47,030 bases of DNA. It comes from Discostella pseudostelligera (lineage: Eukaryota > Bacillariophyta > Thalassiosirophyceae > Thalassiosirales > Thalassiosiraceae). The stretch spans positions 1 to 47,030 of the forward strand of contig JALLBK010000031.1 of assembly GCA_036940085.1 (NCBI GenBank), given 5' to 3'. The notes under the pieces were generated by a model. That model was not told where the DNA came from. It was given only the letters and a program-made list of their open reading frames with translations, and made no database searches. The translations under genes and the position numbers were made by a program. Below, in pieces: positions 4,982 through 41,707 of the stretch (its first letter is position 1; each line of letters begins with the position of its first letter).

Positions 4982-6033
4982 TCATTCGGAAGAAAGGACC
5001 AATTTGTCTTTCGGTGTCGGGGCAGGATCATTCATAAAGTAAGGATGACTCAAGCACTGCGAGGCTGTAAATCGTTTATTCGGATCTAATACCAGCATCG
5101 ACCGTAGCAATGATATACAATCCTGCGGAGCCGCAATGAATATTTCATCGAATTGAACTGTCGGTGGACAATCATCCCACAGCAAACCCTGCGTGCAGAG
5201 AGGCAATGCACTGTGATCAGGCCAATTGGTCTCATTTGGGGTACCAAACACTGTGAAGATTGTATCGAGTTGACTAATGTCTGTCTGATTTCCCTGAAGG
5301 AAAGGTCTTCGAAGTAATAGCTCTGCAAAGATACACCCGACACTCCATATATCCGCGGCGGATGAATATTCGGATGCACCAAGGAGTAGTTCGGGAGGTT
5401 TGTACCACAATGTAATGGCCTGTGGAGATAATCGTGTCTTTGGCGTGCCATACATCCTCGCTAGACCAAAATCTGCTAATTTCATTGTACCATCCTTGAG
5501 AAATAGACAGTTGTCTGGCTTCAAATCTCTGGGAGAAAGAATTGATTTTGTTCGGGGTGGGTGCAAACTTTTTACAGAGGCAGACGGCAACAATATCTCG
5601 TGAATAGAATTAAACAAACCAACACTCACCTATGCAGTATCCATCGTTCATGACATGCCGAGATAGCCCGCAACAAGGACAACAAATGCTGCTTCGTATC
5701 CGCCAACGAAATCGAGATGGCCCGATTTTTTAATATTTTTGCCAAATCCGTATCGGCCACCTCATAGACCAAACATACGGCCTTGTCAGGTGTAGTGAAC
5801 ACATCGACTAATTCAATAATATTCTCATGTTTGAATTCACGGAGTAATTTAATCTCTCGTATGGCTGTGAAGTTAATTCCATCCTCGGGACGTTCACTCT
5901 TGATTTTTTTGAGTGCCACGAGACGACCGCTAACGCCGCCGCCACCGCCGTCAGGAGAAGATTTTTGTCTGGCAAGGTGGACGACTCCCCATGTACCTTG
6001 ACCGAGGGCCTTGATTACTTCGTAGTTATCCAT
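4982..6033 (-). CDS. CDK7: CDK7-type cyclin-dependent kinase (CDK-activating kinase / TFIIH kinase)
   Basis: Two exons, 6033-5630 and 5528-4982, joined across a 101-nt GT-AG intron. The splice restores the HRDLKPDN catalytic loop, with the Arg codon split AG|A, and gives 316 aa. The order is: glycine loop GQGTWGVV near residue 11, catalytic Lys in VALKKIK, a cyclin-contact helix NFTAIREIKLLREF that resembles the NRTALRE of CDK7, HRDLKPDN, DFGLAR, a WYKPPELLLG substrate segment, and a C-terminal PAPTPKDKL resembling the CDK7 tail. In other eukaryotes CDK7 pairs with cyclin H, phosphorylates cell-cycle CDKs and the RNA polymerase II CTD, and belongs to TFIIH. The usual T-loop Thr appears as Ser (LSPQ), and LWYKPPELLLG is closer to CDK9, so a CDK7/CDK9-like divergent member cannot be excluded. 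It is divergent from Prp28. Confidence 0.85.
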
Positions 6034-6505
6034 TGTGGCATCTCTTCATTTAATTATGGTCGATGCGCCCTTACTCTAGTAGGAGTGCTAGATAGCATAC
6101 GGTATTCGTATGGTTTGGTTTCGCGGGCGGCGGCGGCGGCAGCGCCAAATCTATGCCACATGTAAGTGTATTTAGTCGAGTCATTGGATAGCCTCCCGCC
6201 AAATCTATGCCACATGCAAGTGTGTTGGGTCGAGTCGATGAACAAAGCAGTCTCCCGCCAAATCTTAGATGCGACAGTGTCCTCGTCTGACCGTCGATTT
6301 CTTTGGCGCGAAGCCCACTTGAATTTCCTACCCGTAGGCGACCGACGTTGGATTTAGTATGAGAAGTGGAGCCTGAATTCGGCTCATTTCTCATTCATGC
6401 ATCTGCTCCATGTGTACCATGAAAATCGGCAGCGTTGGCAGCGGCACCGGCTCGTGGTAGTACCAACTCAGAGTGGGTGCAATATCCCACCACAGCCCCT
6501 AAGCC
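6034..6505. promoter_or_regulatory. shared CDK7/Prp28 promoter with repeated composite elements
   Basis: This is the gap between two divergent genes. It holds three copies of a direct repeat that starts CGCCAAATCT, at 6143, 6197 and 6256. The first two share the full CGCCAAATCTATGCCACATG, followed by AAGTGT and then GTCGAGTC. The third diverges after CGCCAAATCT. Spacings are 54 and 59 bp. Each begins with an E2F-like CGCCAAA core, and the first two end in a GCCACATG E-box-like half. A GCG-rich run lies at 6122-6142. I see no credible coding frame. Confidence 0.6.
6143..6265 (+). repeat. three direct repeats of the E2F-like/E-box composite element
   Basis: Copies start at 6143, 6197 and 6256. 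The first two are identical over 20 bases and similar over about 50. The third keeps only the first 10 bases and then a related TTAGATGCGAC. The orientation is the same in all three. Few copies and uneven spacing, plus the eukaryotic setting, speak against a CRISPR-like array. Confidence 0.8.
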
Positions 6506-9067
6506 ATGGCATCTATGAACAATGTCCACCACCCACAGTATAATGGCGACGATGACAATGGTGATCTTTCGTCGCTCATCGACCCCTCCCTCCTCGCCGG
6601 TCTTTCAGAGTCCGAACGACATGAGGCACTTGCCGCAGCGGCGGCGGCAAAGCGCGCTGAACGACGGGCCGAGGAACGTGCTCGACAGCGACAGAAACAG
6701 CGAGAGGCAGCGGCATCATCATCATGGTTGTCATCTGATGTAGGCCCTGCCGCTACTGATGCATCATCACGAGCTGCAGCATCATCGACTGCAAAAGCTG
6801 TTGTTGGTGAGAATGGTCACTGTGCAACTACTACCAGCACAACAACTGTCGCGTCAGAGGAAGAAGAGGAACAACGTCTGTTGGCCGAGGCGCTCGAACG
6901 ACGACTGCAAGAGAGACAACGAGAACGAGATGCCGAGCGAGCGCGACTTCAGTCTATGATGAGTGATAGAAAAATTATTGCAAGCGGCAATATCAACAAT
7001 GGGATTGCAATCAATGGGTTGTCGACTGCTACGGAGGGTACGGGTAGTGGAGGGTTGCAATTTGTTAGCAAGAAGAAACGTGGCGTGGGTCAACTATCCA
7101 TCGGTCAGGAAGATACCTACACTAGTGGCATTAGACCCTTGGCAAAAAAGTTGGAAAAAGATAATGTAAACCAGAAGCAGCAGCACCAACCATCAGATCC
7201 CAACGCTAGTGCACATGAATCTCACTTGACGGCATCTCAATTAGCCTCCATTAAAAAGGCATACCTTGGAGAAAAGGCCGTGATAAGTGAATCGTCCACA
7301 AATAATAACAATGCACCACGTTCTACTACTCAATCATCGAATGCAACTCAGTTATCGACCCAATCGATACGACAACAACTTCGAGAGCAGCGCATGAAAC
7401 GTCGTGTGAAGAAGGCGACGTTCAAATTCGAATGGGGAGCGGAGGAGGATACATTCGAGGATGATGATCCATTGTATGGCGGGTCGGCTACGACGTCGAG
7501 TGGTAAGATCTATCAGCAGCAGCAACCACTGTTGCCAGGACAGGGAACTGGTGGTATTGGCCGACCGAGCAATTTCCGTTCCCAAACACATTTACCATCA
7601 CCGCTGGATGGGGAGATTAAATTCGGTAAAAAGAAGATGCGCTCCAACAATGATGCCATTGCCACGGTTGACACAGTTGCCACCAAACCACTCGATAAGA
7701 TGACACCTCGAGATTGGCGCATATATCGTGAAAATTTCAATATCGTCGTGAAGGGTGGCAAATCACCACCACCTCTTCGTTCCTTCCGTGAGATGCCCGT
7801 AGGTGTCCCACCCATCCACCCCAGTTTGTTGGATGCTATCGAAAATAAATTACAATACAAGACACCCAGTCCTATCCAACGACAGGCCATACCCATTGGA
7901 ATGCAACGTCGTGATATGATTGGCATTGCCGAGACGGGAAGTGGAAAGACTGCCGCATTTGGCGTGCCGCTATGTCATCACGTGTTGTGTTTTCCACCAT
8001 CGATATTAAACACGGTTGCCGAGGAGGGTCCATTGGCACTAGTTATGGCACCGACGCGTGAATTGGCATTGCAAATTAATGTCGAATTCGGAAAGTTGTT
8101 AAGTTCTCAACGGAATGTCGTTAGTTTGGCCATTGTGGGCGGACAGAGCATTACTGAGCAGGCTACCAAATTACGCAATGGTGTGCATGTCGTCGTTGGC
8201 ACTCCCGGTCGTATTAATGACTGTGTCGAGATGGCATATCTGGTCTTGAATCAATGTTCGTACATTGTACTCGATGAAGCCGACCGAATGATTGATTTAG
8301 GGTTCGCTCCACAAATTGAACAAATATTAGATGCCATGGGGGCAAAGCTCAAGAGTGAAGATGAATCAGAGGCCTATCGGCAGGAACGAGAGGATTTGGA
8401 AATTCTTGGCAAGGCCGTGCCCAGCCATCGATTAACTGCCATGTTTAGTGCCACAATGCCCAGTGAGGTGGAACGCATTGCCAAACGCTACCTTCGCCAC
8501 CCCGTCGTGGTTTCTGTGGGAGATCAGGACTCTGGAAAAAATACACGTATTACCCAACGAGTACTCTTTTTGTCCTCGCCGGGACAAAAGGAAAACACAT
8601 TGCGAGACTTGCTACGTCGTGCCCATCCCAATGAGAAGATTATTGTGTTTGTCAATGAGAAGAAGCATGCCGATGGAGTGGGACGTATGGTTGAGAAGGC
8701 GGGGAGACAATGTGTTGTTCTACACGGTGGCAAGACGCAAGAACAGCGAGAGGAGAATCTAGCCATGTTCCGTCGTGGAGGTGTGGTCCTTGTGGCGACA
8801 GATGTCGCGGGAAGAGGGCTTGATATCCCTGACGTCAATCAAGTTATCAATTATGATCTTCCCACGAGATCTATTGACAACTATTGCCATAGGATTGGGC
8901 GTACAGGGAGAGCCGGAAAAGAGGGCATTGCTACGAGCTTTATTACCGATGAGGATGAAGGAATAATGGCGCCGCTGAAGCAGTACTTGGAGAGCACCGG
9001 TATGACCGTCCCTGATCGACTTGCGAGACATCCTGCTGCATCTGGTTCTGGAGAATTCATCCGGTAG
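6506..9067 (+). CDS. PRP28: DEAD-box RNA helicase Prp28/DDX23 (U5 snRNP)
   Basis: An intronless frame of 853 aa. The N-terminal half (to about residue 390) is Ala/Arg/Glu-rich and disordered, like the RS-type N-terminus of DDX23. The core starts with TPRDWRIYRENFNIVVKGG, a signature of Prp28, then the Q motif TPSPIQRQAIP. Helicase motifs follow in order: AETGSGKT (475-482), PTRELA, TPGR, DEAD (590-593), SAT (648-650), VATDVAGRGLDIP and HRIGRTGRAG (from 795). In yeast and humans Prp28 swaps U1 for U6 at the 5' splice site before spliceosome activation, so a nuclear role is expected. All motifs needed for ATPase and helicase activity are intact. I chose the first ATG, which is followed by the continuous acidic/Arg-rich N-terminus. 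Confidence 0.92.
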   Translation: MASMNNVHHPQYNGDDDNGDLSSLIDPSLLAGLSESERHEALAAAAAAKRAERRAEERARQRQKQREAAASSSWLSSDVGPAATDASSRAAASSTAKAVVGENGHCATTTSTTTVASEEEEEQRLLAEALERRLQERQRERDAERARLQSMMSDRKIIASGNINNGIAINGLSTATEGTGSGGLQFVSKKKRGVGQLSIGQEDTYTSGIRPLAKKLEKDNVNQKQQHQPSDPNASAHESHLTASQLASIKKAYLGEKAVISESSTNNNNAPRSTTQSSNATQLSTQSIRQQLREQRMKRRVKKATFKFEWGAEEDTFEDDDPLYGGSATTSSGKIYQQQQPLLPGQGTGGIGRPSNFRSQTHLPSPLDGEIKFGKKKMRSNNDAIATVDTVATKPLDKMTPRDWRIYRENFNIVVKGGKSPPPLRSFREMPVGVPPIHPSLLDAIENKLQYKTPSPIQRQAIPIGMQRRDMIGIAETGSGKTAAFGVPLCHHVLCFPPSILNTVAEEGPLALVMAPTRELALQINVEFGKLLSSQRNVVSLAIVGGQSITEQATKLRNGVHVVVGTPGRINDCVEMAYLVLNQCSYIVLDEADRMIDLGFAPQIEQILDAMGAKLKSEDESEAYRQEREDLEILGKAVPSHRLTAMFSATMPSEVERIAKRYLRHPVVVSVGDQDSGKNTRITQRVLFLSSPGQKENTLRDLLRRAHPNEKIIVFVNEKKHADGVGRMVEKAGRQCVVLHGGKTQEQREENLAMFRRGGVVLVATDVAGRGLDIPDVNQVINYDLPTRSIDNYCHRIGRTGRAGKEGIATSFITDEDEGIMAPLKQYLESTGMTVPDRLARHPAASGSGEFIR

Positions 9068-9580
9068 TGCTCCTCCATAATAATTAGGCTCCATTAATAA
9101 TTGTATTGATATTGACTTGTTCAACAACTTCTGCCTTTTCCTTTTGTCGACAACTTCTTCATTCTTCATGATGTTGTTGTCTACGATTCAACCATCCAGT
9201 ATCGTAGATAGTTCAGAAGAACATAGGTGATCCAGCGCAGAGCTTGGCGCCAAATCAAAGAAGAAAGAAGATCCAACTTTCGCGCCAAATCAAAGATCCA
9301 ACTTTCGCGCCAAATCAATCAAAGATTTTGGCGCCACGCGTCAAGACTCAAAGACTCAAGCAGAAAGATCCATCTTTCGCGCCAAATCTGCCACATCGTT
9401 CGACAACGCGCCAACCGCGATGACTCATTGCTGACTCACTCATCCTGACGATGAATGAAATCGATGACGATGACGATGAATGAAGCGATGCACCACATTC
9501 TTGGTACCATAGTCGCCGCCCCACTTCGCTCATAATTTCATCACTCGTTCATTATCTCTCCATTCATACTCACATCAACA
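9068..9580. promoter_or_regulatory. light-harvesting gene promoter with a cluster of E2F-like sites
   Basis: Three near-identical copies of GATCCA(A/T)CTTTCGCGCCAAATC sit at about 9271, 9296 and 9368, with the exact core TTTCGCGCCAAATC at 9278, 9303 and 9375. The palindromic TTGGCGCCAA is at 9244, TTTTGGCGCC at 9326 and ACGCGCCAAC near 9406. The copy at 9375 runs on into TGCCACATCG, resembling the composite element upstream of Prp28. TTTCGCGCCAAA fits the E2F/DP consensus TTTSSCGC. A GATGAC repeat follows at about 9449-9481. No coding frame is supported. The region could also hold 3' sequence of Prp28. Confidence 0.6.
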
Positions 9581-10276
9581 ATGAAGGTCGTCCTCGCTGC
9601 CCTCGTCGCCGGCTCCGCCGCTGCCTTCGCGCCATCCACCTCCGTCGTCTCGACATCCTCTGCCCTGCGCATGTCCGAGGTCCCTGCCGAGGAGACTCCC
9701 TTCGTTCCACCTCCTCTAAAAATCAACGGGTGGTCCGCCGATGCTTCTCAGCCATGCTATGGTCTTCCCGGTGCGGTTGCCCCCCTTGGCTTCTTCGATC
9801 CTCTTGGCTTCACCACAAATATGGAACTCAGCGGCGTGAAGCGATTCCGTGAGGCAGAGATCATGCACGGACGTGTTGCCATGATGGCCACTCTTGGATA
9901 CATCATCGGTGAATCGACTCCTACCATCACCTACGGAATGGACATCCACCACACTATTGCCAACAACCAGATTCCTGAGGTTCCCGGAACTGTCCTCTTC
10001 CCATTCTTCCTTGCCATCAACATTAGTGAGGCCCTACGCGCCAACGTTGGATGGATGGAGCCTGGTCTTGGACCACTCTTCACCCTCCGTGAGAAGTACT
10101 ACCCTGGTGATATTGGATTCGATCCCCTTGGCTTGAAGCCCAAGGATGCGAAGGACTTCGCCGATATGCAAACAAAGGAGTTGAGCAATGGACGTTTGGC
10201 TATGTTGGCGGCTGCTGGCATGTGTGTTCAAGAACAGATTAACGGCCAGGGTATTTTGGAGAACCTTGGATTTTAA
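9581..10276 (+). CDS. fucoxanthin-chlorophyll a/c light-harvesting protein
   Basis: An intronless 231-aa protein. The N-terminus MKVVLAALVAGSAAAFAP is a textbook diatom bipartite presequence, with signal peptide cleavage before the Phe of SAAAFAP, so the protein goes to the thylakoid through the four-membrane plastid. Two chlorophyll-binding helices are clear: EAEIMHGR with the E93...H96...R98 pattern, and KELSNGRLAM with E200, N203 and R205. A more divergent middle helix lies near residues 140-158, and YYPGDIGFDPLGL before helix 3 is a family hallmark. Codons are strongly C-ending near the start, as expected of a highly expressed gene. The subfamily (Lhcf, Lhcr, Lhcx or other) cannot be fixed by eye. 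The gene is convergent with the RNase H-like gene, 155 bp away. Confidence 0.92.
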   Translation: MKVVLAALVAGSAAAFAPSTSVVSTSSALRMSEVPAEETPFVPPPLKINGWSADASQPCYGLPGAVAPLGFFDPLGFTTNMELSGVKRFREAEIMHGRVAMMATLGYIIGESTPTITYGMDIHHTIANNQIPEVPGTVLFPFFLAINISEALRANVGWMEPGLGPLFTLREKYYPGDIGFDPLGLKPKDAKDFADMQTKELSNGRLAMLAAAGMCVQEQINGQGILENLGF

Positions 10277-10431
10277 GGTTGTTGCTTAAAGAAAATAAAA
10301 ATCTGTTGTACTAGAACATCTATTATCACTATGTATCTAACTGCATTACGTATCCTCACGAGACTATCTGAGTCTTTCCTTTACTGCTTACGTGGACGGC
10401 TGCGACCTGCGACACCGATAGGCGGTCGTCC

Positions 10432-11619
10432 TCAATTTGCGGATAAGGTCTTCACTTCCTGAGATTCCAATACCCACAAGTCTTGACCACTTGACACATT
10501 GTTAGCTTTAGATCTCACAAGAACTTTCTCACGCCATCGTTTCAGCTGACCTCGTCGAGACTTGGTTGGACTACAACTCTTGACAATATCAGAAATATTC
10601 TCATTGTACGGATCGAACAGATTTGAGACTAAGCCCGAATAATTATCGACGAAGTAGTTTGATTGGTCAATGCGAAGGCAACCTCGGGACGAAGCATCAA
10701 TCTTGTAATGCCGTGATAGATCCCTACATGCAATGCTAACTTCTTTCAACTCCTGTTTCTTTTCATTGACAACATCATCATCATCATCGTCCTCTGGGTT
10801 CCAGTAGATCTTTGAATATTGTCGCGACAAATCCATGTAATATCCGGACAACTCATCAAGAATCGATGCATACGTGCCTGCGTTTTCCCATTTTCCCATT
10901 CGAGCCAAGTATATCAATTCCTGTGCAAGCTTTAACGACAAATAATATCGAGATGAATGACATAAACTTGTGTTCCGAAGTAATTCATCGAGTGCTAACT
11001 CCAAATCATCAGATATAATCAATCTATCGATTTTACTGACTTCATCAAGTAGTTTCTGAGTTGTTACCAACTTACAGATTGCATCACATAAACAATTCTC
11101 ATCTCTTGGAATCAACTCACAGACGACGCTTAGCTCTCTAGATGATTTGTCGAAGGACGACTTTTGAATGTCCCGAATATACGTCTGGGCAGTATTGTAG
11201 TGTGTTTCCATCTTTCTCGGTGATGATTTAGAATTCAGTTGATCAATTACAGCTTTGCAGTCTCCTCGAATAATTATCTTAGTGGCATCGCTCAGTACAT
11301 TTCGATTCAACTCCGTTCTGTCGCAATTATTTGGATTGTAGGCACTCGCCAACCAATTTAATCCGAGTAGTAGTCCTTCGTACTCCGCATCTGCAGATGT
11401 AATCCCTGGAACAATTGGCAAGAGCTTTCCACCGATGGCAAACGATGCTTCTTCGTGGTTGGGTAGTTGGAAGGATACGGTGGCACTGCATGATGCCATT
11501 TCTTTCCCTGAATTGTGTCTGAAGCCGGGTACGGGATCTCGTGGCAGACGGAGCGAGCCATCGAAATTGACAATGATGACGAGGCCGGCAACCACTGCGG
11601 CGAAACCAAGAGGCAGCAT
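10432..11619 (-). CDS. RNase H-like domain protein
   Basis: An intronless 395-aa frame. Residues 15-190 form an RNase H fold of the plant/archaeal 'reverse-transcriptase-like' type: VNFDGS (D20), ADAEYEGLLLGL (E79), IIIRGDCKAVIDQL (D120) and ENCLCDAICK (D179). The full D-E-D-D metal-binding set is therefore present and the domain may be an active nuclease on RNA:DNA hybrids. A helical region of about 200 residues follows with no family I recognise, including a short poly-Asp run and a basic C-terminus. No reverse transcriptase or integrase domain accompanies it, so it is not an obvious retroelement remnant. The first 17 residues are hydrophobic and could act as a signal or membrane anchor. 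Confidence 0.75.
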   Translation of the reverse strand: MLPLGFAAVVAGLVIIVNFDGSLRLPRDPVPGFRHNSGKEMASCSATVSFQLPNHEEASFAIGGKLLPIVPGITSADAEYEGLLLGLNWLASAYNPNNCDRTELNRNVLSDATKIIIRGDCKAVIDQLNSKSSPRKMETHYNTAQTYIRDIQKSSFDKSSRELSVVCELIPRDENCLCDAICKLVTTQKLLDEVSKIDRLIISDDLELALDELLRNTSLCHSSRYYLSLKLAQELIYLARMGKWENAGTYASILDELSGYYMDLSRQYSKIYWNPEDDDDDDVVNEKKQELKEVSIACRDLSRHYKIDASSRGCLRIDQSNYFVDNYSGLVSNLFDPYNENISDIVKSCSPTKSRRGQLKRWREKVLVRSKANNVSSGQDLWVLESQEVKTLSAN

Positions 11620-12159
11620 TTGTTGTCCTAATATTCAGCAGATGTAGCTACTACATGGTCTATGGTGAAGGTCGGTGGTCGGTGGTCGTGGTGAATTACT
11701 TGTGTTTATAAGGGATAGGTAAACTAAATAAACAATTCGTGAAGCGCGAACTCTACTTAATATTTTTGTTTATTTAATGTGCGAACTTCAAATATTAAAA
11801 TAATAAATGTAATTTGGTCCAACCTCCACACCTCGCTGTTGCCATTGCCACTGCCGTCGCCATAGCATTACCATTGCCATGGCATAGCATGTCATTGCTA
11901 TTGCCATAGATTGCCATCATAATCTTCTGCTCCCCACTCCACCCACCCCACTCATCGTCTCAATTATCATTAATATCCATCCTCATCCGCCACTCGAACC
12001 AGCCGCACAGCACGACGCACCGGCACCACATCACCCCAATACTACGCGTCTCTACCTCTACCCACTACCACTACAGCTGTAGTAGCTGCAGATAGCCGAT
12101 CGCGAGACTACACACTTGCACTTCTGCTACACATCATATCATCAATTGGTGTACGTACA
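11620..12159. other. divergent intergenic region with GCCATT simple repeat
   Basis: This lies between the divergent RNase H-like and lactonase genes. AT-rich sequence at 11700-11820 is followed by an imperfect run of ATTGCCAT/GCCATTGCC units at about 11837-11925 and a C-rich stretch of probable promoter or 5' UTR before 12160. No protein-coding frame is convincing. Confidence 0.55.
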
Positions 12160-13632
12160 ATGATGAATCATCAGTACAAATATATCGGATTCGTTGGCTG
12201 CTACACTAAAGAGGGGCAGGTGAGAAAATAATACGTGTTGTCTGAATTGGCCTAGATTGACATTCTCATGAGCTTTGTCTACATGTTATTTTCAACGATA
12301 TTTCATACACATAAATAATAGGCAGATCCATTCGAAGCATATCGCGGTGGAGTTCCACATGATCGTTCAAAGGTTGGAAGGGGAGTGCTTGCCGTTGGTT
12401 TGGATGCATCGGGGAAACTCTCCTACCTGAACCATGGAGAGCCAATCATATCGGCAGAGAAATTGCCCAATCCCTCCTACTTGTGCATATTGGAGCGTGT
12501 GAACGGCAGTATCAGTAGTAGCGGCAGCAATCGACCAAAAGCATTGCGTGATGGTGGACTGTGCATCGTGTCCGAGCTTTCAGAGGGGAAATTCCAGTCA
12601 TTTGCCGTGAAAGTTACACCATCTCAAAACGGGAAGCTGGAAGTACACGCAACAGCAATCGGAGAAGCGTTGGATACGGGTGGATCATGGCCATGTCACA
12701 TCATAAGCACAAACGTTGGTGATGCGATGGAGTGTATCATCGTATGCAACTATGGAGAAGCGGAGGGTGTATTGTCCGTATTTGGATTTCACAGTGATTC
12801 ACTGACAGATGTGTATTCCAAACAGTCAAGTATCTCATTTGGCCCTGGCTCCAAAGCCGATCGGGATCGACAAGAAGCATCACATGCACACTCCGCTTCC
12901 GTCATCCCATCCATATCCAACTGTTCATCGATGGACTTGTGCTGCGCTGACTTGGGATCAGATGCTATTGTGCAATTTTCAATGACTACCGATACTTCCA
13001 CTGCTACCAACGATGGACGAGGTTTGTCATTCCAATGCATTGAGAAGGATCGGCTGGCTGCTCCACCAGGATCAGGACCGCGATCACTAATGTTCAACCC
13101 AATCTTTACAAATGTTGCAATTGTAAGCCTGGAAATGACCGCGCAAGTATGTCTCATTCAACGTCGAGTGGGTGATGGAAAGTTCATAGCCTTGGGTGAG
13201 CCCATTTCTGTACTACCAGAAAATTGGCCGAGCGATACCGAACTGCAATATCAATTCAACCATGGACGATGGGCGTCGGATGCTGTGTGGAGTCCTTGCG
13301 GAAAGTTTGCATACGCCGCGGCTCGTTTGCACAACTCCATATCAGTATTTGAGATGAAACTGTCAACAAAATCTGCAGAGAGTTCATCCATCTCCACCGC
13401 TTGCGATATCAATGGGCTCAAATTAATCCAGAGAGTGTCCACCGATGGCATCACACCTCGATGCCTGTGCATGTCGGAGTGTGGTCAATTTGTGTTGGTA
13501 GCACATCAACATTCGCATGATATTTCTTCATTTCAGCGGAATGAGACCGATGGCAAAGTAATTTTCATTGATCGGATTGAGGTGCCGAATGCAGCTTGCG
13601 TGAAGTTAATCCGACCTCAAATGATTGGGTGA
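12160..13632 (+). CDS. lactonase-type seven-bladed beta-propeller protein
   Basis: Two exons: 12160-12219 (only 20 codons) and 12322-13632, with a 102-nt GT-AG intron in phase 0, giving 456 aa. The short first exon supplies the expected opening strand YIGFVGCYTKEGQ, which continues as ADPFEAYRGGVP. This matches the start of the 6-phosphogluconolactonase/3-carboxymuconate-cyclase-like family. Family features seen later are NPSYLCI near residue 57, a propeller-like pattern of strands, SPCGKFAYAAARLHNSISVFE, and GITPRCLCMSECGQFVLVAHQHSHDISSF split over the last blades. Family members hydrolyse sugar lactones in the cytosol, but many homologues have other or unknown substrates, so the substrate stays open. 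A GTG inside exon 2 is not the start. The acyltransferase follows in the same direction, about 300 bp on. Confidence 0.8.
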
Positions 13633-13689
13633 GGTGAAAAGGCTTGACAAGGGTATCGGTGAGATTATTTGATGACTCGACTCCACTTT

Positions 13690-13800
13690 CATCTTCCACG
13701 TGGCATCGATTTGGCGGGAGATTTCGTGGCATCATTCGGCGGGAAACTGATACTCGACTTCTATCTACTATTCTTCCACGTGGCAAACGGTTTGGCGGTG
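13690..13800 (-). promoter_or_regulatory. three E2F-like/G-box composite elements upstream of the acyltransferase gene
   Basis: Read on the minus strand, 13716-13697 is CGCCAAATCGATGCCACGTG, which differs at two bases from the 20-mer found twice upstream of Prp28. A second copy at 13741-13725 reads CGCCGAATGATGCCACG. A third at 13797-13777 has CGCCAAAC, six bases, then GCCACGTG. The elements are close to one another and end about 130 bp before the start codon at 13931. Confidence 0.65.
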
Positions 13801-13930: not shown

Positions 13931-15628
13931 ATGACAATATTCTCATTTCAATCTCAGAAGGAGGGATGGGCGATCAGTGTCACATCATGCACTTTAGTTT
14001 CAGCCACTCTGATCCTTTTCCGATCTTTTTCGCTTGGGCAACTTATGACCTGGCCCTCGGCCTCGACGCCACCTCGGCATGATGTGTTTACAATAACAGC
14101 ATTTTGCGTGCTCGGTTTGATAACTCTTCTCTTTTTCCGGACCGTTTCGCGTGCGCGATATGAATCATTGAAGTCAAAGGAACAAGCAAAGTCAGCTTAT
14201 CACCGTAGACGATTGACCCCAATCGGCAAGTTTACCTTGCTTTCTCAAACGGAACGGAACCCATCGATAATAGCATTCTTCTGTGCTCTAGCAATCAAAG
14301 ATGACAAGGGCATGGAGATTGGGGAGTTTCGTCAATTATGGAATGAGGTTATGAGCAAGCATGAGCGTCTTCGATTCTGTGTGCCTGATGCAGATAACTT
14401 TTTTGCGGATGGATCAAAGTCTATTGATGACTACGTACTAGACTTGCCACATCCACGCAGTCCAGATGAGTTCAAAGCTAGACTGAACATTTTTCTTACT
14501 TCGCCTATCAACGTCGAGGAGCAGCCCTTCGAAATTGCGTTTTCGTCTGGGCCTCTCGGGGCATCGGGTGCCATTATCAACCACGACGATCTCGTCCAGC
14601 AGGGCTACAAAACTGAGACTGTTGCATTATTTCGCATTCACCATGTCATTTGTGATGGAGTCTCTTTGAGTGCTATTATCAAAGATAGTGCCGACGAGAA
14701 GGATCAGTTGGACGGAATAATGAGTGATGCAATTCAGAAGCATCGAGCACATGCCAGAAACATTAACGCATTCAAGAAAATCTTTCGGTTTGTGATGTAT
14801 TATATTTTCGGCTCAGCAGTTGCTCTGGCGCTTCAGATTTGGAATATGCTAACGTTGACGAACCCATTCGACGAATTCACCAATGACAAGGAACTAAAGG
14901 AGAGTACACGTTCTGTCTCGTGGAAATTTCTCACCACAGTTGAAGAGGCGAAGTCTGTGACAAAGGCAATCTCAAACCAAACGTGCTTGAACGATTTATT
15001 CGTTGCTCTGTTGGTCTCTGCTCTCGAACGGCAGTACAAGGAGCTTAAATCAAAATCAGCAATATCATGGTCTAAGGGCCCATCATCTGTCGGCGTAGTG
15101 GTTCCGGTTCACCTTACTGGAACAATTCTGCCTGGTCAATCGATTGGTAACAACATTGGGGCTTTTGTGTCGGCGCTTCCATTCGATGCATCGCCCAATG
15201 AGAAAAGTACAAGTTCGCTTCCGCGATTGCGAAAAATTTCCCGTATTCTTCGAAGTGCCAAGCAGACCCCAGCACCTCAAATCTCATGGTTGATCACGTC
15301 ATTGATAAGCAAATTAGGGATCAAGTGCGTTGCAAAACAGGCAATTGTGCGGTGTAATTGCCACGCATCAGCAGTTATTTCGAATGTGCATGGATTCCCT
15401 TTTCAGGTACACTGGAAGGGTATGCCCATCGAATCAATTGTCCCCCTTATTCCTTTGCCCCCAAAAGTAAAAATTGGAGTAGGCGCTTTTAGCTATGACG
15501 GAAAGATTGCCTTGAGTGTTGTGTCATCAGATGAGCGAGTAGTTCCCAACGCCGGCCGGTTCTTGGACTTCATGTTGGAAGAATACGAAGCAATCAAAGC
15601 TGAGGTGTCCAAAGACGATCGTGAATAG
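13931..15628 (+). CDS. WS/DGAT-like membrane acyltransferase
   Basis: An intronless 565-aa frame. Two hydrophobic segments lie at about residues 17-40 and 55-70, so the protein is probably anchored in the ER or lipid-droplet membrane. The catalytic HHxxxD motif is HHVICDG (H237, H238, D242), inside FRIHHVICDGVSLSAII. Later blocks fit the wax ester synthase/diacylglycerol acyltransferase family: NDLFVALLVSALER, VVVPVHL, GNNIGAFVSALPF, AVISNVHGFPF and VGAFSYDGKIALSVVSDE-like near the C-terminus. That family esterifies fatty alcohols or diacylglycerol with acyl-CoA. The HHxxxD fold is shared with alcohol acetyltransferases and condensation domains, so the acceptor is uncertain. Composite promoter elements lie just upstream. 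It is convergent with the HA-domain gene, 95 bp away. Confidence 0.75.
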   Translation: MTIFSFQSQKEGWAISVTSCTLVSATLILFRSFSLGQLMTWPSASTPPRHDVFTITAFCVLGLITLLFFRTVSRARYESLKSKEQAKSAYHRRRLTPIGKFTLLSQTERNPSIIAFFCALAIKDDKGMEIGEFRQLWNEVMSKHERLRFCVPDADNFFADGSKSIDDYVLDLPHPRSPDEFKARLNIFLTSPINVEEQPFEIAFSSGPLGASGAIINHDDLVQQGYKTETVALFRIHHVICDGVSLSAIIKDSADEKDQLDGIMSDAIQKHRAHARNINAFKKIFRFVMYYIFGSAVALALQIWNMLTLTNPFDEFTNDKELKESTRSVSWKFLTTVEEAKSVTKAISNQTCLNDLFVALLVSALERQYKELKSKSAISWSKGPSSVGVVVPVHLTGTILPGQSIGNNIGAFVSALPFDASPNEKSTSSLPRLRKISRILRSAKQTPAPQISWLITSLISKLGIKCVAKQAIVRCNCHASAVISNVHGFPFQVHWKGMPIESIVPLIPLPPKVKIGVGAFSYDGKIALSVVSSDERVVPNAGRFLDFMLEEYEAIKAEVSKDDRE

Positions 15629-15723: not shown

Positions 15724-18700
15724 TTAAGACAATGTTTGACTGTCTTGCGCACCATTGGGTTTGCTTGCAACAACAACACTCCCTTGCGCAACATCATCGA
15801 CATTTTTTGTGTCGACCTCAATAAACTCTCCGCCGACAAAATCGTCGTCATCGTCGTCGTCAATTTCGTCGTCATCATCGACGTCGCCCTCTTCATTGGT
15901 TCGATTTCGAGTATGAATAGCCCACTTCAAACCTATCGCATCTAATTGTTTGACGTATTCATCTTTGAGACGGCCTTTTGCATGAGCGGACCTTTGCCGA
16001 TTGACCCATCTCCCAAGACTTAAAGAAGGATTTGATCGAGTTTTGAAATTTGCTGGGACGTTCCCATCCCATCCGTGGGGGCTCTGTTTGCGCTTTTCTT
16101 CGGCATAGGCGCAAAGACTATCGTACATTGTTGTCCAGGATGTTGTTAATAGTACAGACCATTTCAAGCCAATTCTTTCCAAATCTTGCTGACGATCTTT
16201 TTTGAGTTTCCCAGCCTGAAAGAGACTTCTCTGTCTATTGACCCACCGCCCCAAGTTCTTCTCCTCGTCATCCGTGTTATAAGTGGGTATGTTACTTTTA
16301 ATCTTGTAATTCGTAGGGACATTACCGTCCTGCGATGTAGAGTAAGGGTAAATTCTGCTGTGAGGGTGGAAGAAACAAAACGCTGATAGGTAGTCTCGAT
16401 ATATGCACTCACCCATATTTGACCGTCTTTTGTTTGTTCATTAACATATATTTCCAACTCACGAAGCATTTGTCTCCAAGAATTCGTCGTAAGCACGCTC
16501 CACTTTAGACCAGTACTCACAAGTCTTACTTCTCTGTCGTCCTTCAGTGCCCCCTTCGCCTTTGCCGATCGTTGGTTATTTATCCACCGACCAAGAGCTT
16601 TCCCGCACGAGGTCTTATGGCTCGTAGGAACGTTGCCATCCCAAATCCATGCTGCCTTCTGTTCATCGGTCAAGTTTTTAGTTGCCTTTTCACGGGTCTC
16701 TTCGATGAATTTCACCAAGCACTCAAACATGTCATCCCACTTTTGCTGGGATTGCAACGTGCCAGCTTTGGAACTCGGTGCTGACGATGGGACAGGTGCA
16801 GGCTTGATATGCGAGTGAGCCGTTTGGAAATCTTGAGAATGAACATGGTCCGGCATAGGAATGAATGGCGGAAGTGGAGCTACACCCCTCTTTTTTATTG
16901 GAATGCGAGTAGGCACGCCAGGTTGAACCGTTAGTGAAATTGACGAAGTTACTTGCATTGGTCGCGGCGGCGGTGGTCTCTTGAGAGGTGTTTTCCCATC
17001 TAGACCTGGTGGCACATACCCAGCAGCCGCTCTGGCCCGCTCTTGTCTCGCCTCCATTTCTTCTTTAGTCTTGGTGCATGTAGGTATTGGGACTAGTGGA
17101 ATGTTTATACTTGAAACAGGGAAGGATGTTGGAGGCTTAGTGGGAAGACCAAGTAGTGAGCCAGAAACAATCGGCTCTGGAGTTGCCGAGAAGAGCTGAG
17201 GAGTTACCTTCGTCGATGCAACAAAGGGTTTAGGTTGAGATTTATTGTGCAGGCGTGGAGGATTTTTCGCATTTGAAGATGGATCCTTCGATGTCACAGG
17301 AGCTTTTTTGGGAAGTGGCGTAGCATGCTGGGAGGGTCTTGAAAAGACCAATTGGTCTTTGACCTTGCCTCCCTTGATGGTCTTTGTTGTTGAATCTATG
17401 ATGTGGTTAGTAGGTTTGGAAGCGCACGGTTTGCCAAGAATTGTATTCAAATCCAAGCCATCTGTGGCAGCATTTGCGGCGTGGACAGCAGATGCAATGG
17501 CGTCGTAGTCGACAACTATTGAAGCAGCTCCAACGGATGACACATCTGATGGCTTAACAATACGGTGTTGAACATTGCCCTTCGCACTTTTTGTCGCCGG
17601 TGTTTTAGTATTCGCCGGCTTTGAGGTTGAAGTGTCAGAGAGCGATGCAAGAGACAACGACGCAAGAGAATCCAGTCTTTGCCTCCCCTTCTGCATTGAC
17701 AACGAGTTCGATCCAACACTGGCACTGCGATTGTCCCTCATGCGTTCGAAACTAGCAACTCCCTCAGACAAATCATCATATCCCAAATCGGCAGCAGCTG
17801 CCAAAACATCATCAAGTATACCAGTGTCTTTAAGTGCCATGTGAGTTGCAGCAATAGCCGATGAACCCATCGCTCCAGTACTTAAATCAGACATGCCCCC
17901 CCAGCTTTCAAGGCGATTTCGACTCATGCTGTTCGAGAAGCTGTCTTGAGAATTGCTCAACCTCCTTCCCGACTCAGGACTTTTGCGCAACTTCTTTCCC
18001 ACGGAACTCCCCTCATCCGATTTCGTCTTCAGTGAAGAGAGACCGTCCATCACATCCGAACTTAGATGTCGCTTAAAGCGCAATATTTTTGTTGACTTAG
18101 CCTCGCTACCTTTTGGATCATCGCAGAGTGCCTTCAAGTGATCGAGTACATTACTGTTGGCATTATGATCTTCGATATTATCCGGGAGAATTAAATCATC
18201 AATGCTTCCCTCCGGGAGTTCTGTTGAACCAATCAAAAATTCCACAGTATTACTCCGTGCTCGAGCTGATGCCATATTTGAATAGATTTCCAAGGTATTG
18301 CTCCGTGGCCTCCTCTGAGAATATTCAGAAGAATGGTCACTTGCCATTGACTCCGCACCCTCGCGTCCCATCTTACCCCCATTGTGATCGGGCGAGAGCA
18401 GCAGTCCATGCTCTGCGGCTACCGATACAAAGAAATCAAGCTTCGCGCTATTGATCGAGCTCGCTGTGGAGTCGAGGGTATCACTCCGCGGACGTTTGGG
18501 GAGAAGTGGATTATATTTTGTTGATGCTCCACTCGGCGCGCTAACGTGATGCGTCGTGAATGTTGCCCCATCATTGGCAGCAGCCGCTGCCGCAGCATCA
18601 AGATCATGACCCAAGTCTCCAGCAACCGCGGCAGTGAGAAAGTCCAGTGTGTCAGAACGAGATCTCCTTCCAAAGATATCAAATGTGTCATACCCTGAAC

Positions 18701-20090
18701 CAGTTTCAGCCAATATGTCATCGTCATCCATTCCATCCGCGCTGTGAAAAAAGTTCTCCGGACCATCCCGTTGATGGTTCTTATCCAACGACGCTTCTTC
18801 TTCCTGCAAAAGAGCAAATGACAGTGATCGTGTCCGGTATCGTTTCCGTAATGGCCCCTGCGATGTTGACTCAGACGACTGGCTCGTCGCGCGCAGTCTA
18901 TTCGTTATTTTGGGTGTTTTGCCATCTGCATATGCACCTCCCTTTCCTCCCTTGGTTGATCTTGTGCCACTCTTCGGCACATTCTGGGTTTGATAATTAA
19001 TAGCCACCTTCTTGACAACCGTGGCGGGGGGTTTGTCGATTGCGTGTTCCTTTGTTGAACCGATGGGAGAAAGTTGAATCTCATCTAAATTGTTTGAAGT
19101 GTCACCATCAAGTTGGAATTCCACTGCCGATGTCAAGAAATCAATGGTATCGGATCGATCTCGGCCAGGCACGGGGAAATAATGGTTGTCTGAATCTCCA
19201 ATTTTTGCATCGTCTCTGTTCAAACCAGGAAGAACAATAGATTCGGTAGGGATTTCATTGTTTAGATGGGAATCCATTGCAGCGCGGAATGATTCAATGG
19301 TGTTGCTTCTTTCCCTCGTTTGGGTACATGCTGTGAGTGATATTGACGAAGACGTGCTGTAATTCTCAAAAGGCGGCAGTACATCCTCCTTGGAATCTGC
19401 AGCAGCTGCAATCTTGGCCTGGGAAGATTTTGTCGCAGACGAATTGGTCCGAAATAATGCCCGCGGTCCCTCATTCCTATGCCGTTTCCTCACCGGTCCC
19501 CGCGATGACATTCTATTCGTTCGCAGAGGTGTCTTTCCATCATCGTCAAATAAAATAGGATCCATGGAATCGTCTCCCCCAAGGCTGTCCCCGCCTGATT
19601 GAGAGGACAATGCAGAGGAAAGACTACGTGTGCGACTTCGGGTGGATGGCTTATTCGAGTCTGAATTTTGTGAATCCGCTGGATTGCCCTCTGATGCGTT
19701 CCCAACTGCGGATACCTTGGTTGCCTCAGTGACGTCTGTGCTGGTGTGAATCTCATTGTCAATTGAGAATGGTGATTCTCCAATCCCTTCAAGAGGAGCG
19801 GTTTTATTCTTTGATGCCAATTCATCAATAATCGAAATTCCAGATGGCGCAGAATTTACTACTGCTACTGCATCGACTGCATCGCTCGTACAGTCTGCTA
19901 TGATGGGAATCTTCTCGTCAGAATCTGCACTCGCCACCGCCGTAAAATCATCTTCTGTTTCCGCTGAAGTCTTAGCGGTGCTAGAAGAATCATTCACCGT
20001 ATTATCACCATCTGACGTAGCCGCTCGTTGAGCAATAATTTTCTGCGTGGACATGTTGTGATTATTGCCAGTCTGTCGGTGTAGGGACAA
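15724..20090 (-). CDS. helicase-associated (HA) domain protein with RS(N/D)T repeats
   Basis: Two exons, 20090-16413 and 16329-15724, around an 83-nt phase-0 intron, giving 1427 aa. The splice joins ...KDGQIW to DGNVPTNYK and so restores the middle HA domain. Three HA domains (the PF03457 type found in many diatom proteins) lie in the C-terminal quarter, each with WDGNVP, LGRW(I/V)N(N/R)QRS and GLKW(S/A) blocks. The long N-terminal part is Ser/Thr-rich and probably disordered, and carries six RS(N/D)T(I/L/V)(E/D) motifs at residues 261, 312, 478, 535, 596 and 612. It ends in a poly-Asp stretch. HA domains were first seen beside bacterial helicases and are thought to bind nucleic acid; no helicase motifs are present here. 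A nuclear, DNA-binding role is an inference. Translation may start at 20090 or at the Met 12 residues on. Confidence 0.82.
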
Positions 20091-30344: not shown

Positions 30345-30600
30345 GGTAAAAGAGTGATTATGGTGAGATGTGATGGTGATGGCGACGATGGCGTGATGGT
30401 GATGGGCGCGCGGGTGATAGATGGTGATGACGTGGTTGGCGGGAAAGTTTGGCGGGGAGTTGGATAAAATGGCGGGAAGACAGTTTGGCGAAATCTACAG
30501 AGCCCACAGTTAGTCATTCGCCCATACTTCGATACCGATATCGTACCATGGCGGGCAAATTTCACCTCCCGAAACAAAAACTTAGAAGTTAGTACTCCTA
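30345..30600. promoter_or_regulatory. NSF-like gene promoter with clustered GGCGGGAA sites
   Basis: TTGGCGGGAAAG at 30436, TTTGGCGGGGAG at about 30447, ATGGCGGGAAGA at 30469 and TTTGGCGAAA near 30484 lie within about 60 bp, with GGCGGGCAAA near 30551. These are E2F-like half-sites less than 250 bp upstream of the start at 30344. No second GCCACGTG half is seen here. Confidence 0.5.
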
Positions 30601-33221: not shown

Positions 33222-33273
33222 GGATTTGGCGGGAAACTGAGATTCGGTACAAAATGGATTTGGCGGGAAACTG
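33222..33273 (+). promoter_or_regulatory. pair of exact E2F-like repeats
   Basis: GGATTTGGCGGGAAACTG appears twice (33222-33239 and 33256-33273). The core TTTGGCGGGAAA is a near-perfect E2F-type site. GGCGGGAAACTGA also occurs at 13737. The position fits the promoter of the minus-strand coiled-coil gene starting at 32922. Confidence 0.55.
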
Positions 33274-37413: not shown

Positions 37414-37727
37414 GGTCGTCGTCGATGGGTGATGGTGAATGGTGATGTTGCCACGTGCCACGAGGTAGAGTGATCTTCCACGTGTCACAGGGTGAGGTAT
37501 GATCTTCCACGTGGCCTCTTCCACGTGAGCACTGACCTTCCACGTGGCAGGAAAGGTGCACCACATTTCTACTGAGTCGAGTGGAAGAAGGATGCGTCTG
37601 TGCCTGCCAAAACGCTACTGTGGATTCGGCCATTTTCGGCCGTCATGGTTAGGTCCAATGTTTTGGTCTCGGAATCAATAAATCTCGAGTCGATACCACA
37701 GCAACAAGCAACAGCAAGCAGTGCCAC
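37414..37727. promoter_or_regulatory. bidirectional SelW-like/APC6 promoter with five G-boxes
   Basis: The palindrome CACGTG occurs at 37452, 37479, 37508, 37522 and 37541, mostly as TTCCACGTG(G/T/A). Five copies in 95 bp is far above chance for a 6-mer. The cluster sits between the divergent starts at 37413 and 37728, nearer the SelW-like gene. CACGTG is the classic target of bHLH and bZIP factors. Confidence 0.75.
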
Positions 37728-40700
37728 ATGCCACATCATCGAAATCGTACCAGTACCATGGCATCCGCCAATCCCAACCCTACTAGGAACGAATCCACCT
37801 CTGCATCCAACGTCAATATTGTCATCGGTGGCGGCAGTGGCATTAGATCTGCTCATCATGATCATGGCGTTAGTAGTGGAGGCAGCGGCGGTGGCGGTGG
37901 CATCGGCAGTCATCCCCATCCAGGAACGTCTGGCCGATCGCCCCCACCTTCTCGCATGGCATCATCATCATCATTGGTAGGAGGTGGCGGCGGCGGCGGA
38001 GGTGGAAGGCCGAGCATTGGCTCTACTTCTACTACAAGTGGGGTGAGCATTCCATCATCATCAACTACAGCTAATGTGGGTCGTCCATCTTTCGATGGCA
38101 GTGGCATGCGCCTCCCCCCAGCAGCAGCAGCAGGAGGTCGGAGCAGTGGTGGCGGCATTGGCATGATGATTAGTGGCACACGTCTCTCGTACAGCGGTGG
38201 CAGCAGGAGCAGTAGTGGTGGTGGTGGTGGTGGTGGTGGCGGCGGACCATCTTCGTCAGCTGCCGATGATGCTGCGGGCATTAATACAAGAACACCGGCA
38301 CCATATCAACAACAACAATTGCGCTCACTGGCATCCCCTCCTTCCACTTCTTCCACAAATAATGATGGAGACTACGATACCAATAACAATCCCTATTCTC
38401 AATCAGACTTTTTAGCAGCATTAAGTCCATCGACTGCCAATTTTTTACGAAGGGGACGGGGTGGAAGTGTCGTTGGTGAGAACATCAATCTTACCAATAC
38501 TGCTGGTTCTGGTTTGACCATTGGAGTCGAGCCACGAGTTGGAATGGAAGCAACATCAACAACAACAGCAGCAACATCAATGGCAAATAATACACAAGTG
38601 TTATCCCCTGCATCGGCAGCATCTTTGGCTGCGGAGAATGCTGTACGTACTGCTGCCAATGCTGCACGTGGTATCGATAATCATAATGATGCTGGGAATG
38701 AAGAGGACGAGGATAAGGACATTGACATGACGGATGAAAATGCTGGTGATGAATTCAATTTTGATGCTACCCATAATGGAGGACGGAAGAATCAGAATAA
38801 TCATCCAAATGAAGGCGATGGAGCGAAGCATCTCAACTCCATCGATAATGGTGATGACACTTCCCAGCTACGACAATTCGTCCAATCTCTCCTTGGGATG
38901 CAACTTCCCGCTTCTTCCTCAGATGGTTCCAATTCTTCTACCATGATGCCAAGCACCATGATCACACCCGATCCAACTTCGGCAGCCTTCTTTGCCATTT
39001 CTCTCCTTACAAAAACTGCATATTCATCGTCATCATCCCCGTCTGCTGACACCACAAACATCGATGGGAGCATTGGCGGAGAAGGACGAATGTCAGATCG
39101 TCTCAAAACCAATTGGCGTCCGGACGATGCCTACCTGGCTGCACGGGCACTTAGTTTAGGAGGGGAAGATAAGCGTGCAATTTATATACTGGATAAGGTT
39201 GGCTTGATTGGATTTGGTATGGAAGGGGCAGGTAGTGGTGGTGGTGGTGGTGTAGGTGCAGATGAAGAGGAGAAGTATGTTGGAAGACAGTCACCAACGC
39301 CTAGTACCACCCCACCCATTTCCAACAGACAAGGTGTACGAAATGCCATCCTCTTACGTGCCGAGTCGGCATTACTGGCTGGGCAATGCCTCATCCGTGC
39401 AGGAGACTATGAACGTGCATCTATTGTGTACGAGGAGGCAATGCGTTATCCACCACCGCCACCTCCTATAAGTTGGGGGATGTTTGGGTATGGCTACCGT
39501 CCTGATGATATTCGCCGGAAGCAAGAAGTTGGAGCCACTATTGGTACCTTTGATAAAATGGAGGATGGGGAGGAAAGAGAGGATAAGGACTTTGATGCGT
39601 TGCTGGCCGATGAAATGTACCTTCGCTCGTGGCGAGAACAGTCGTTATCTCATGCGGCTTTAATCGATGATGGTTATGACGTACGTTTGTTGCAGCTCGC
39701 GTCTAGCATACGACCGTTGCCCTTCTCGGATGCATCTACCAATACTGTCCCTGGCAGTATCGACAACAACAACATCATGGCGGGGGGGATACATCCCATG
39801 GCGCGATTATGTGCTGCACGAGGCATCGCGTTCGATGCCATGTCGAATCCGCACCGTGCCATATCCTTCTTGAAAGCAGCACTGAACATTGATGCACGGT
39901 GTATGGAGGCTTTGGATTATGTTATCAAGAGAAGATTACTAACCCCCGAAGAGGAGAGAGAATGGATAAATACCTTGAACTTTGGAGCGGGGGACTTGGG
40001 CAGTATGGGCATATCATGGTTACGGGATGCCTATCTGGCTCGTTTGCGTGGCATCGGCGGAGTGGTGGCATCGGCGAACGTGCCTCTCACATCCCTTCGA
40101 GATCAGTCTAGCAATGGAACTACTACTGGGGTGTCTCCTGTCCCTCGTTTGGATATGCAATCTCCATCGATTCTTTCGTTAGGCTCTCCAGACTTTGCGG
40201 GTGGAGCCATCTTAGGAGATGGCAGTAATCAAGCTCTGGCGGGTTCGTTCCCTCCCCCGAACGAATTTGCAGCTGCTGCCGAAAAGACAATCAGCATTAG
40301 TCGAACAATCGATGAGGCATTCCACAATCTCGCCATCACGCATAATCTAGGCCATTCGCCAGATGTGCTCTCTCACGCTGCCATCCGCGCATATGCCCTT
40401 CACGATCTCCATTCTGCACTTGCGTACTGCACTGCCATTGATGCTATTGATCCCTACTGTCGTACTGCGGGCTATGTCCACGTTGCTACATTGGTCGGAT
40501 TGACCCTGAAACGACGATTGTTCCAATTGGCACATCGATTGGTCGATACTGACCCAAAAGACGCTCTGGCGTGGTTTGCTGTCGGGAGTTACTATTACAC
40601 ATGTCGGCGTTATGACTTGGCGCAAAGACACTTCAGCCGCTCGACGAGGCTCGATCCAAGCAGTGCCGAGTGTTGGATAGGATTTGGTTGTTCGTTCGCG

Positions 40701-41707
40701 GCCTGCGATGAGAGTGATCAGGCATTGGCATCGTTCCGCGCCGCGCAAAACAAATATTCAGGTAGTCACGTGCCCCTCTTGTATATGGGTATGGAGTACT
40801 TACGGACAAATCACTTGAGTTTGGCAGGACACTTTCTGAACTCGGCGCAGAGGACGGACCCATACGACATGTTGTGCTGCAATGAGTTGGGCGTATGGAG
40901 CTATCGGCAGGGTGATATGAAGGATGCAGCGTTTTGGTTCCTGAAGGCGCTTCGGTTGCAATTACGCGCAGAAGGGTCGTCGTCATTGAATTCGGTAGAC
41001 GAAGGGTTGGGTGTGGATGGGTTCATTTTGTTGACAGGAAAATCGGCTAAAGGTGTTGATGGCAATCGAGAAGACTTCAACGATGATATGGTTGCAAGTA
41101 CTCCCGTTACTCCGTATCTTTCGAGACGAACAAGCCCGCCAGTGTCTACTGTTCTATGTGCCATCAAAACACCGTCCGGACATTCCATCGCCGCGTCCCT
41201 TTTCAGCGACACCAATGCAAATAGAGGCACTGATTTGCTCACTGATATTGAGTGTGTCGAGAGGTGCCAGGATCCATTTTGGGAGCCAACGATATTCAAC
41301 CTTGGGCAGAGCTTCAGAAAAATGAAGCGGTATGCAGATGCCATTGTATGTTTCGACAAATGCACTTCATTGTGTCCGGTGAGTGTTGCAATACATAAAA
41401 GTTCTCCCTGCATTGTTGTATGCATCCATTGTTAATCATTTTTGTTGGTGCCTGCATTTGAATGACAATTTAGGGAAATCATGCCGCCTATGCTGCGCTG
41501 GGATTTGCCAAACATCTTGGCGGAGATGTCGATGGTGCTATCGATATCTACCACAAGGCTCTGAGTCGAAAACCAGAAGATAATTTCACGTCAGAGATGC
41601 TGACGAGGGCACTTGCAGAGGCGGTGATATATCCACCGTCACTTGCCATGCTTTCATCGTCACATGATGTAGATGGCAGGTTCGGGGGGTTGACAGCTCC
41701 GTATTGA
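37728..41707 (+). CDS. APC6: anaphase-promoting complex subunit 6 (CDC16), TPR protein
   Basis: Two exons, 37728-41378 and 41474-41707, with a 95-nt phase-0 intron; 1294 aa from the first ATG (a second ATG at 37758 is equally possible). The first 450 residues are Gly/Ser/Asn-rich low-complexity sequence with poly-Gly, unusual for the family. TPR repeats fill roughly residues 915-1085: LVDTDPKDALAWFAVGSYYY, YDLAQRHFSRSTRLDPSSAE, CWIGFGCSFAACDESDQAL, VPLLYMGMEYL, and ELGVWSYRQGDMKDAAFWFL. This order is characteristic of CDC16/APC6. Two more TPR helices follow across the intron: KRYADAIVCFDKCTSLCP, then GNHAAYAALGFAKHLGGDVD. APC6 is a scaffold of the ubiquitin ligase that drives metaphase exit. 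Confidence 0.88.

Follow-up and report, generated by a model that had tools for sequence, protein, structure and literature searches.

The window analysed here, a 47,030-nucleotide stretch of the genome of the diatom Discostella pseudostelligera (contig JALLBK010000031.1), contains two arrays of short conserved boxes, designated E (E2F-like), G (G-box-like) and B, which together form a three-part module that recurs across the genome and probably has a cis-regulatory function. The first array lies on the plus strand at 6142-6262, between the divergent genes for a CDK7/KIN28-like kinase and a Prp28/DDX23 helicase, and its boxes are ordered E-G-B-E-G-B'-E. The second lies on the minus strand at 13673-13797, close to the start of an acyltransferase open reading frame (ORF), and is ordered E-G-B'-E'-g-E-G-B; a prime or a small letter denotes a degenerate box. 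The features are listed below with the means by which each box was located in brackets, where the 20-mer is CGCCAAATCKATGCCACRTG, the E and G portion of the module, two thirds of it.

4982..5629, minus strand: ORF, 3' part of the CDK7/KIN28-like kinase, best match in the PDB to CDK7
5626..6033, minus strand: 5' exon of the CDK7/KIN28-like kinase, ATG at 6033, 109 bp from the first 20-mer
6142..6150, plus strand: E box of unit 1, GCGCCAAAT (20-mer match)
6155..6162, plus strand: G box of unit 1, GCCACATG (20-mer match)
6174..6183, plus strand: B box of unit 1, AGTCGAGTCA (genome-wide B-box listing)
6193..6203, plus strand: E box of unit 2, CTCCCGCCAAA (B..E search and coordinate check)
6209..6216, plus strand: G box of unit 2, GCCACATG (20-mer match)
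6228..6237, plus strand: degenerate B box of unit 2, GGTCGAGTCG (GTCGAGTC at 6229-6236)
6252..6262, plus strand: E box of unit 3, CTCCCGCCAAA, with no G box after it (coordinate check)
6506..9067, plus strand: Prp28/DDX23 helicase gene, ATG 289 bp from the second 20-mer
9247..9387, plus strand: distinct E2F-like array of four GCGCCAAATC sites, including the copy at 9378, without G or B boxes
13673..13682, minus strand: B box, AGTCGAGTCA (genome-wide B-box listing)
13697..13704, minus strand: G box, GCCACGTG then GAAG (20-mer match)
13710..13720, minus strand: E box, CTCCCGCCAAA (20-mer match)
13725..13745, minus strand: degenerate unit, E box TTCCCGCCGAA then GCCACG (coordinate check)
13751..13758, minus strand: degenerate B box, GTCGAGTA (coordinate check)
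13777..13784, minus strand: G box, GCCACGTG then GAAG (E..G search)
13791..13797, minus strand: E box CGCCAAA, first unit of the minus-strand array (E..G search)
13931..15628, plus strand: WS/DGAT-like acyltransferase ORF, start 134 bp from the minus-strand array

The 20-mer had been picked out in an earlier, sequence-only reading of this DNA, and all six sequence stretches named there were found at the coordinates given. Copies begin at 6143 and 6197 on the plus strand and occupy 13697-13716 on the minus strand, each with no mismatch to CGCCAAATCKATGCCACRTG, and no further site is present in the window when up to three mismatches are allowed; shuffled windows contain a mean of 0.02 sites and at most one. 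The window's own assembly (23,041,147 bases in 963 contigs) was then searched as a whole, with the same tolerance, and 370 matches were obtained, against two for the reversed pattern. The three exact sites and this genome-wide excess together establish that the 20-mer is real and widespread. Among the variant copies proposed in that reading, the one at 13777-13797 on the minus strand is a unit with one extra base between its halves, and the one at 13725-13741 on the same strand is a degenerate unit, CGCCGAAT...GCCACG. The copy at 9378-9397 on the plus strand is also where it was said to be, but is an element of another kind, part of a local GCGCCAAATC array with no proper G or B box. This array comprises four GCGCCAAATC sites in the same direction at 9247-9387, three of them TTTCGCGCCAAATC, and stands upstream of a Chloroa_b-bind (FCP-type) gene at 9581-10276.

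A complete unit consists of E, TCTCCCGCCAAAT, followed after about 5 bp by G, TGCCACGTG(T/G)AAG, then after about 12 bp by B, AGTCGAGTCA, with about 8 bp to the next E, and units frequently stand in tandem in the same direction. Genome-wide, the pattern CGCCAAA N0-30 GCCACGTG (E..G) has 382 sites, some overlapping, and its control none, while chance pairing is estimated to yield about seven, or about 25 if only noncoding DNA is considered; with the boxes relaxed and the gap narrowed, the pattern has 380 sites against one. The reverse order, GCCACGTG then CGCCAAA, is found at 164 sites against two in the control, as is to be expected from units standing in tandem. When the flanks of the G box are placed in the opposite order, CACGTGGC, there are 62 sites against one, in part the palindromic CCACGTGGC. 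The third box is joined to the other two in the same way, with 159 sites for CACGTG N3-33 GTCGAGTCA (G..B; control one) and 85 for GTCGAGTCA N0-30 CCGCCAAA (B..E; control none). An inverted B box precedes CCGCCAAA at three sites only, compared with the 85 direct ones, and the relative direction of the boxes within the module is fixed. Among the first 100 listed of the 382 E-G pairs, 53 have a gap of 5 bp and 13 one of 6 bp. The commonest G-B gap is 12 bp, in 26 of the first 100 listed of 159, and B is most often separated by 8 bp from the E that follows (23 of 85). Alone, AGTCGAGTCA occurs at 286 sites against 20 in the control; of the first 100 listed, 50 are preceded by CACGTG, 27 are followed by CCGCCAAA and 61 adjoin either in the arrangement of the module. 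The description of two halves resembling an E2F site and a G-box was sound as far as it went, but it was incomplete, as it overlooked the fixed polarity and the B box, present at 6174-6183 (plus) and 13673-13682 (minus) and in degenerate form at 6228-6237 (plus) and 13751-13758 (minus).

An alignment of 43 distinct units, taken from the fetched loci and the window, has the consensus (T)CTCCCGCCAAATC(T/G)(A)TGCCACGTG(T/G)AAG, and columns beyond the boxes hold just 0.01-0.15 bits. The inner letters of this consensus are biased, because CGCCAA and CCAC.TG were prescribed in the search and the 20-mer had served to pick 25 of the loci, while the flanks CTCCC and TAAG/GAAG are free of search bias. 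The G core is CACGTG in 40 of the 43 units and CACATG, as in the window, in the other three, CAC.TG being fixed by the search. Conservation extends into the gap: in the 53 pairs with a 5-bp gap, chosen on CGCCAAA and GCCACGTG only, its first base is T in 49, its second C in 34 and its last T in 50. The flank of the E box differs with context. Before CCCGCCAA, paired E boxes carry CT in 33 cases and TT in 10, compared with 7 and 14 for unpaired ones in a 247-kb sample (Fisher p = 0.002).

The position of the module relative to genes was studied at 27 loci, of which 25 were fetched at matches with no or one mismatch and two are those of the window, a set that is not random; genes were taken mechanically as ORFs of at least 100 amino acids. 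An ORF start lies within 700 bp in 24 of the 27, with the module in the same direction in six, in the opposite direction in 12 and between divergent ORFs in six. The distance from module to nearest start ranges from 7 to 536 bp over both orientations, and falls between 59 and 339 bp in 22 of the 24. By a strict definition each examined locus has one to four units. The number of loci with an E-G pair, irrespective of the presence of a B box, is about 300, as extrapolated from the 78 loci found among the first 100 of the 382 sites. In one examined locus, L035 (1052-1357), at least four units are present with their spacers repeated too, representing local tandem growth of the module.

The 247-kb sample, made up of 20 stretches of 10 kb (L009-L028) from different contigs together with the window, contains 11 composite hits. 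Ten are noncoding, and each of these has an ORF start no more than 400 bp away (46% expected); none of the 11 is in convergent intergenic DNA, although these are small numbers from few loci. An upstream count had been proposed in the earlier reading and was made in this 247-kb sample. Here TTCCCGCCA and CCACGTGG head the noncoding words other than repeats, with 41 sites against 0.4 expected and 36 against 1.8 respectively, the latter being a palindrome of which each site is counted twice. Of 41 TTCCCGCCA sites outside ORFs, 34 have an ORF start no more than 400 bp downstream (46% expected), and none of 44 TTCCCGCCA sites is in convergent intergenic DNA. Within 400 bp upstream, (T/C)TCCCGCCA is found in 30 of 128 ORFs and the composite in five, window ORFs included. 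Two further sets of noncoding words are over-represented in this sample, AAGTATCTT (13 against 0.8 expected) and ATGACCATG/CATGGTCAT (16 against 1.4).

The neighbouring genes are varied. A Pfam family was assigned to 18 of 30 neighbouring ORFs scanned, and the families are diverse: besides CDK7 and Prp28, they include a HIND-motif protein, a MINDY deubiquitinase, a ribosomal L5-family protein, myo-inositol-1-phosphate synthase, ClpS-domain, DnaJ, thioredoxin-like, ABC and CFA20 proteins and an SRP54-type GTPase, among others. At L030 the module is inside the ORF for myo-inositol-1-phosphate synthase, ahead of the part that matches Pfam; at L029 (1693-2400), L038, L040 and L043 it is past the 3' end of the scanned ORF; and at L031 the Bax1-I ORF starts more than 700 bp from it. 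A regulon confined to a single pathway is not seen among these families. In the window, the 5' exon of the kinase taken alone has KIN28 and CDK2 as its best PDB matches, with CDK7 ranked lower. The relatives of the Prp28 protein include those of Thalassiosira profunda (71% identity over 97%), Skeletonema marinoi (85% over 57%) and T. pseudonana (87% over 53%); judged by this one protein, the host most likely belongs to the Thalassiosirales.

The sequence-only reading had left two explanations standing, a common promoter module or the relic of a small dispersed repeat. The second would make the copies fragments of a small transposable element, and in its favour alignments between arrays of different loci reach 204 bp, identity is 67-78% in the 25 longest cross-locus matches, and local tandem duplications that include the spacer exist in some loci (L035, L038). 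However, when the E, G and B boxes are masked (2,396 of 66,485 bases in the 27 loci), the 688 cross-locus BLAST matches fall to zero, whereas 531 are obtained when the boxes are kept and everything else is shuffled. This implies that the likeness between loci is carried by the boxes; the low information in columns outside them and the proximity of most examined copies to ORF starts also speak against a repeat. Motif masking leads us to reject a transposon relic, homology beyond the boxes being absent at the BLAST sensitivity used, and we regard this origin as very improbable. The promoter-module option is the one supported by the E..G pairs, their preferred 5-bp gap and the frequency of ORF starts near the examined loci. 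That two promoter-enriched words might merely co-occur, with no joint module, is suggested by each being independently among the leading noncoding words and by the many E-like sites that are unpaired. It is hardly credible given the excess of pairs over the 7-25 expected, the single gap shared by 53 of the first 100 listed, the polarity of the B box (85 against 3) and the distinct E flank of paired sites; these controls, the gap preference and the polarity contradict chance or mere co-occurrence.

Two other explanations accept the module but read it differently. The fixed order and polarity, along with the preferred 5-bp E-G gap, are what might be expected if one large DNA-binding protein, such as a multi-zinc-finger protein, read E, G and B as a single long site. 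This seems unlikely, since the G-B and B-E gaps are variable, E-like and G words are also found apart from the module, and each half fits the site of an ancient factor family encoded in the genome. It is slightly less likely still that the module is chiefly a replication origin or chromatin boundary that happens to adjoin promoters. Its free orientation to the gene, the varied neighbours and the intergenic arrays would suit such a role, but the absence of composite hits from convergent intergenic DNA, albeit among 11 hits from few loci, and the concentration of TTCCCGCCA sites close upstream of ORF starts argue against it.

The reading as a composite cis-regulatory module, with an E2F-type protein on E, a bHLH or bZIP protein on G and a third factor on B at several hundred places, mostly promoters, is considered probable. 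Several observations weigh against it. Three of the 27 examined loci have no qualifying ORF start and in seven the module is inside an ORF of at least 100 amino acids, while the loci used for the start distances were picked from the best matches and their genes are mechanical ORFs. The ten noncoding composite sites of the 247-kb sample come from four loci, of which the discovery window supplies two, and in the 200 kb outside it only two loci (L014, L023) carry the module outside ORFs, so there is little positional evidence free of bias. By itself, CCACGTGG does not cluster near starts (18 of 36 sites within 400 bp), 39 of the first 100 listed B sites are outside the module arrangement, and no obvious functional class links the neighbour genes among the 30 ORFs scanned. 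The difference in E flank reaches p = 8 × 10-8 (29, 8 against 10, 39) only with CCCGCCAT sites classed as unpaired, which overstates it, and within module loci the E boxes that are unpaired have CT in 10 cases and TT in 7. Masking tests flanks better than spacers, because it chops the arrays into short pieces. Finally, the genome has a single HLH match, within a long open frame, and neither a B box nor an E-G unit is present beside the E2F_TDP loci in the DNA examined there.

Candidate factors are otherwise available. E2F_TDP has four matches over the cut-off in three places (C723, C521 and, twice, C12), and bZIP_1 has fourteen matches, twelve of them over the cut-off. The two domains on C12 (L050 and L051, at G000:C12:39480-40166) are about 210 bases apart, each in an open frame of 333 amino acids, a paired layout that is presumably that of the atypical E2F7/8 or DEL proteins. 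In an oomycete, likewise a stramenopile, the motifs to which E2F proteins bind contain CGCCA, and those of bHLH proteins are CANNTG (PMC11267843). On account of the motif likeness, the presence of E2F, HLH and bZIP genes and these oomycete data, we infer that proteins of these families bind the module; cooperation between them and an effect of activation rather than repression are proposed. The E box would be occupied by an E2F/DP-type protein and the G box by a bHLH or bZIP dimer, the two binding cooperatively; with a separation of about 12 bp from centre to centre they would sit on roughly the same helix face. A third factor on the B box would complete the unit, and tandem units would increase occupancy. 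The array would then behave as an upstream activating sequence effective in either orientation, and between CDK7 and Prp28 it may serve both sides of a divergent promoter.

In its proposed working the module resembles composite elements already known, where an E2F site has a second site as partner. The E2F/DP site has the consensus TTTSSCGC. The E consensus TCTCCCGCCAAAT is ATTTGGCGGGAGA on the reverse strand, its CGCCAA core being fixed by the search, and the E box, TTTGGCGG on that strand, contains the CGCCA core reported for oomycete E2F proteins (PMC11267843). E2F_TDP genes are encoded in the genome; however, the neighbours of the module are varied rather than S-phase genes, and its pairs more often have CT-CCCGCC than TT-CCCGCC. 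The CACGTG core of the G box is that of the G-box/E-box of bHLH/bZIP factors, but its flanks, TGCCACGTG(T/G)AAG, are asymmetric, with a preferred direction relative to E. In mammals, paired E2F-E-box promoters are bound by E2F3 with TFE3. These likewise join an E2F-like site to an E-box, whereas the module has largely fixed spacing and polarity, a third box, frequent tandem units and hundreds of loci. The CHR motif is of the TTTGAA type and lies about 4 bp after an E2F-like site. DRM/DREAM sites combine E2F/DP with LIN54 (PMC3093354). The module shares with CDE/CHR and DRM/DREAM sites an E2F-like site adjoining a second conserved element, but that element is GCCACGTG, a G-box, and not a TTTGAA-type CHR; identity with CDE/CHR is ruled out, as after CGCCAAA the unit reads TC(T/G)ATGCCACGTG. 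In diatoms, CO2/cAMP elements (CCREs) have been described from Thalassiosira pseudonana (PMC5067629). No description of the module was found among the papers listed in the literature searched, mostly outside subscription journals and with the CCREs not compared letter by letter, and the three-part module is apparently undescribed. The E-G pattern has no match in viral contigs, and two stretches in 257 Gb of prokaryote genomes, from two unrelated bacteria, where about two are estimated for equal base use.

To our knowledge, little is known of the cis-regulatory grammar of diatoms. Boxes of defined sequence, spacing and direction at hundreds of places provide a predicted regulon, nominate factors and offer a candidate short promoter part. 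They point to a gene-control system shared across probably about 300 places, mostly in front of genes. They also raise the question of how E2F-like sites came to stand beside housekeeping genes, and the B box, in the module arrangement at 61 of the first 100 places listed, may indicate a factor not yet described. A further reading, which we hold to be possible though on balance doubtful, is that the module is a lineage-specific three-factor unit, with rigid polarity and free orientation to genes, defining one regulon of about 300 loci. On this view E2F, perhaps through a distinct version of its site, would have been drawn from cell-cycle control into that of general growth genes, along with a G-box factor and a third factor dedicated to the unit.

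Some other features of the window resemble parts of the module. At 37450-37548 there are five CACGTG within 100 bp, four of them after CTTC, upstream of a TPR gene at 37728-41435 with ANAPC3-like matches; no E or B words occur within 200 bp of this cluster. Clusters of the TTCCCGCCA type, the common unpaired E-like word of the genome, are present at 30437-30478, 33227-33269 and 46724-46872, just upstream of minus-strand ORFs starting at 30344, 32922 and 46609. The minus-strand ORF at 10432-11619 has a weak RNase H-like match (RVT_3, E = 1.5 × 10-4), and may be what is left of a transposon, or else a domesticated RNase H. Also on the minus strand, at 15724-20090, two ORFs overlap in different frames, each with a match to the helicase-associated (HA) domain.

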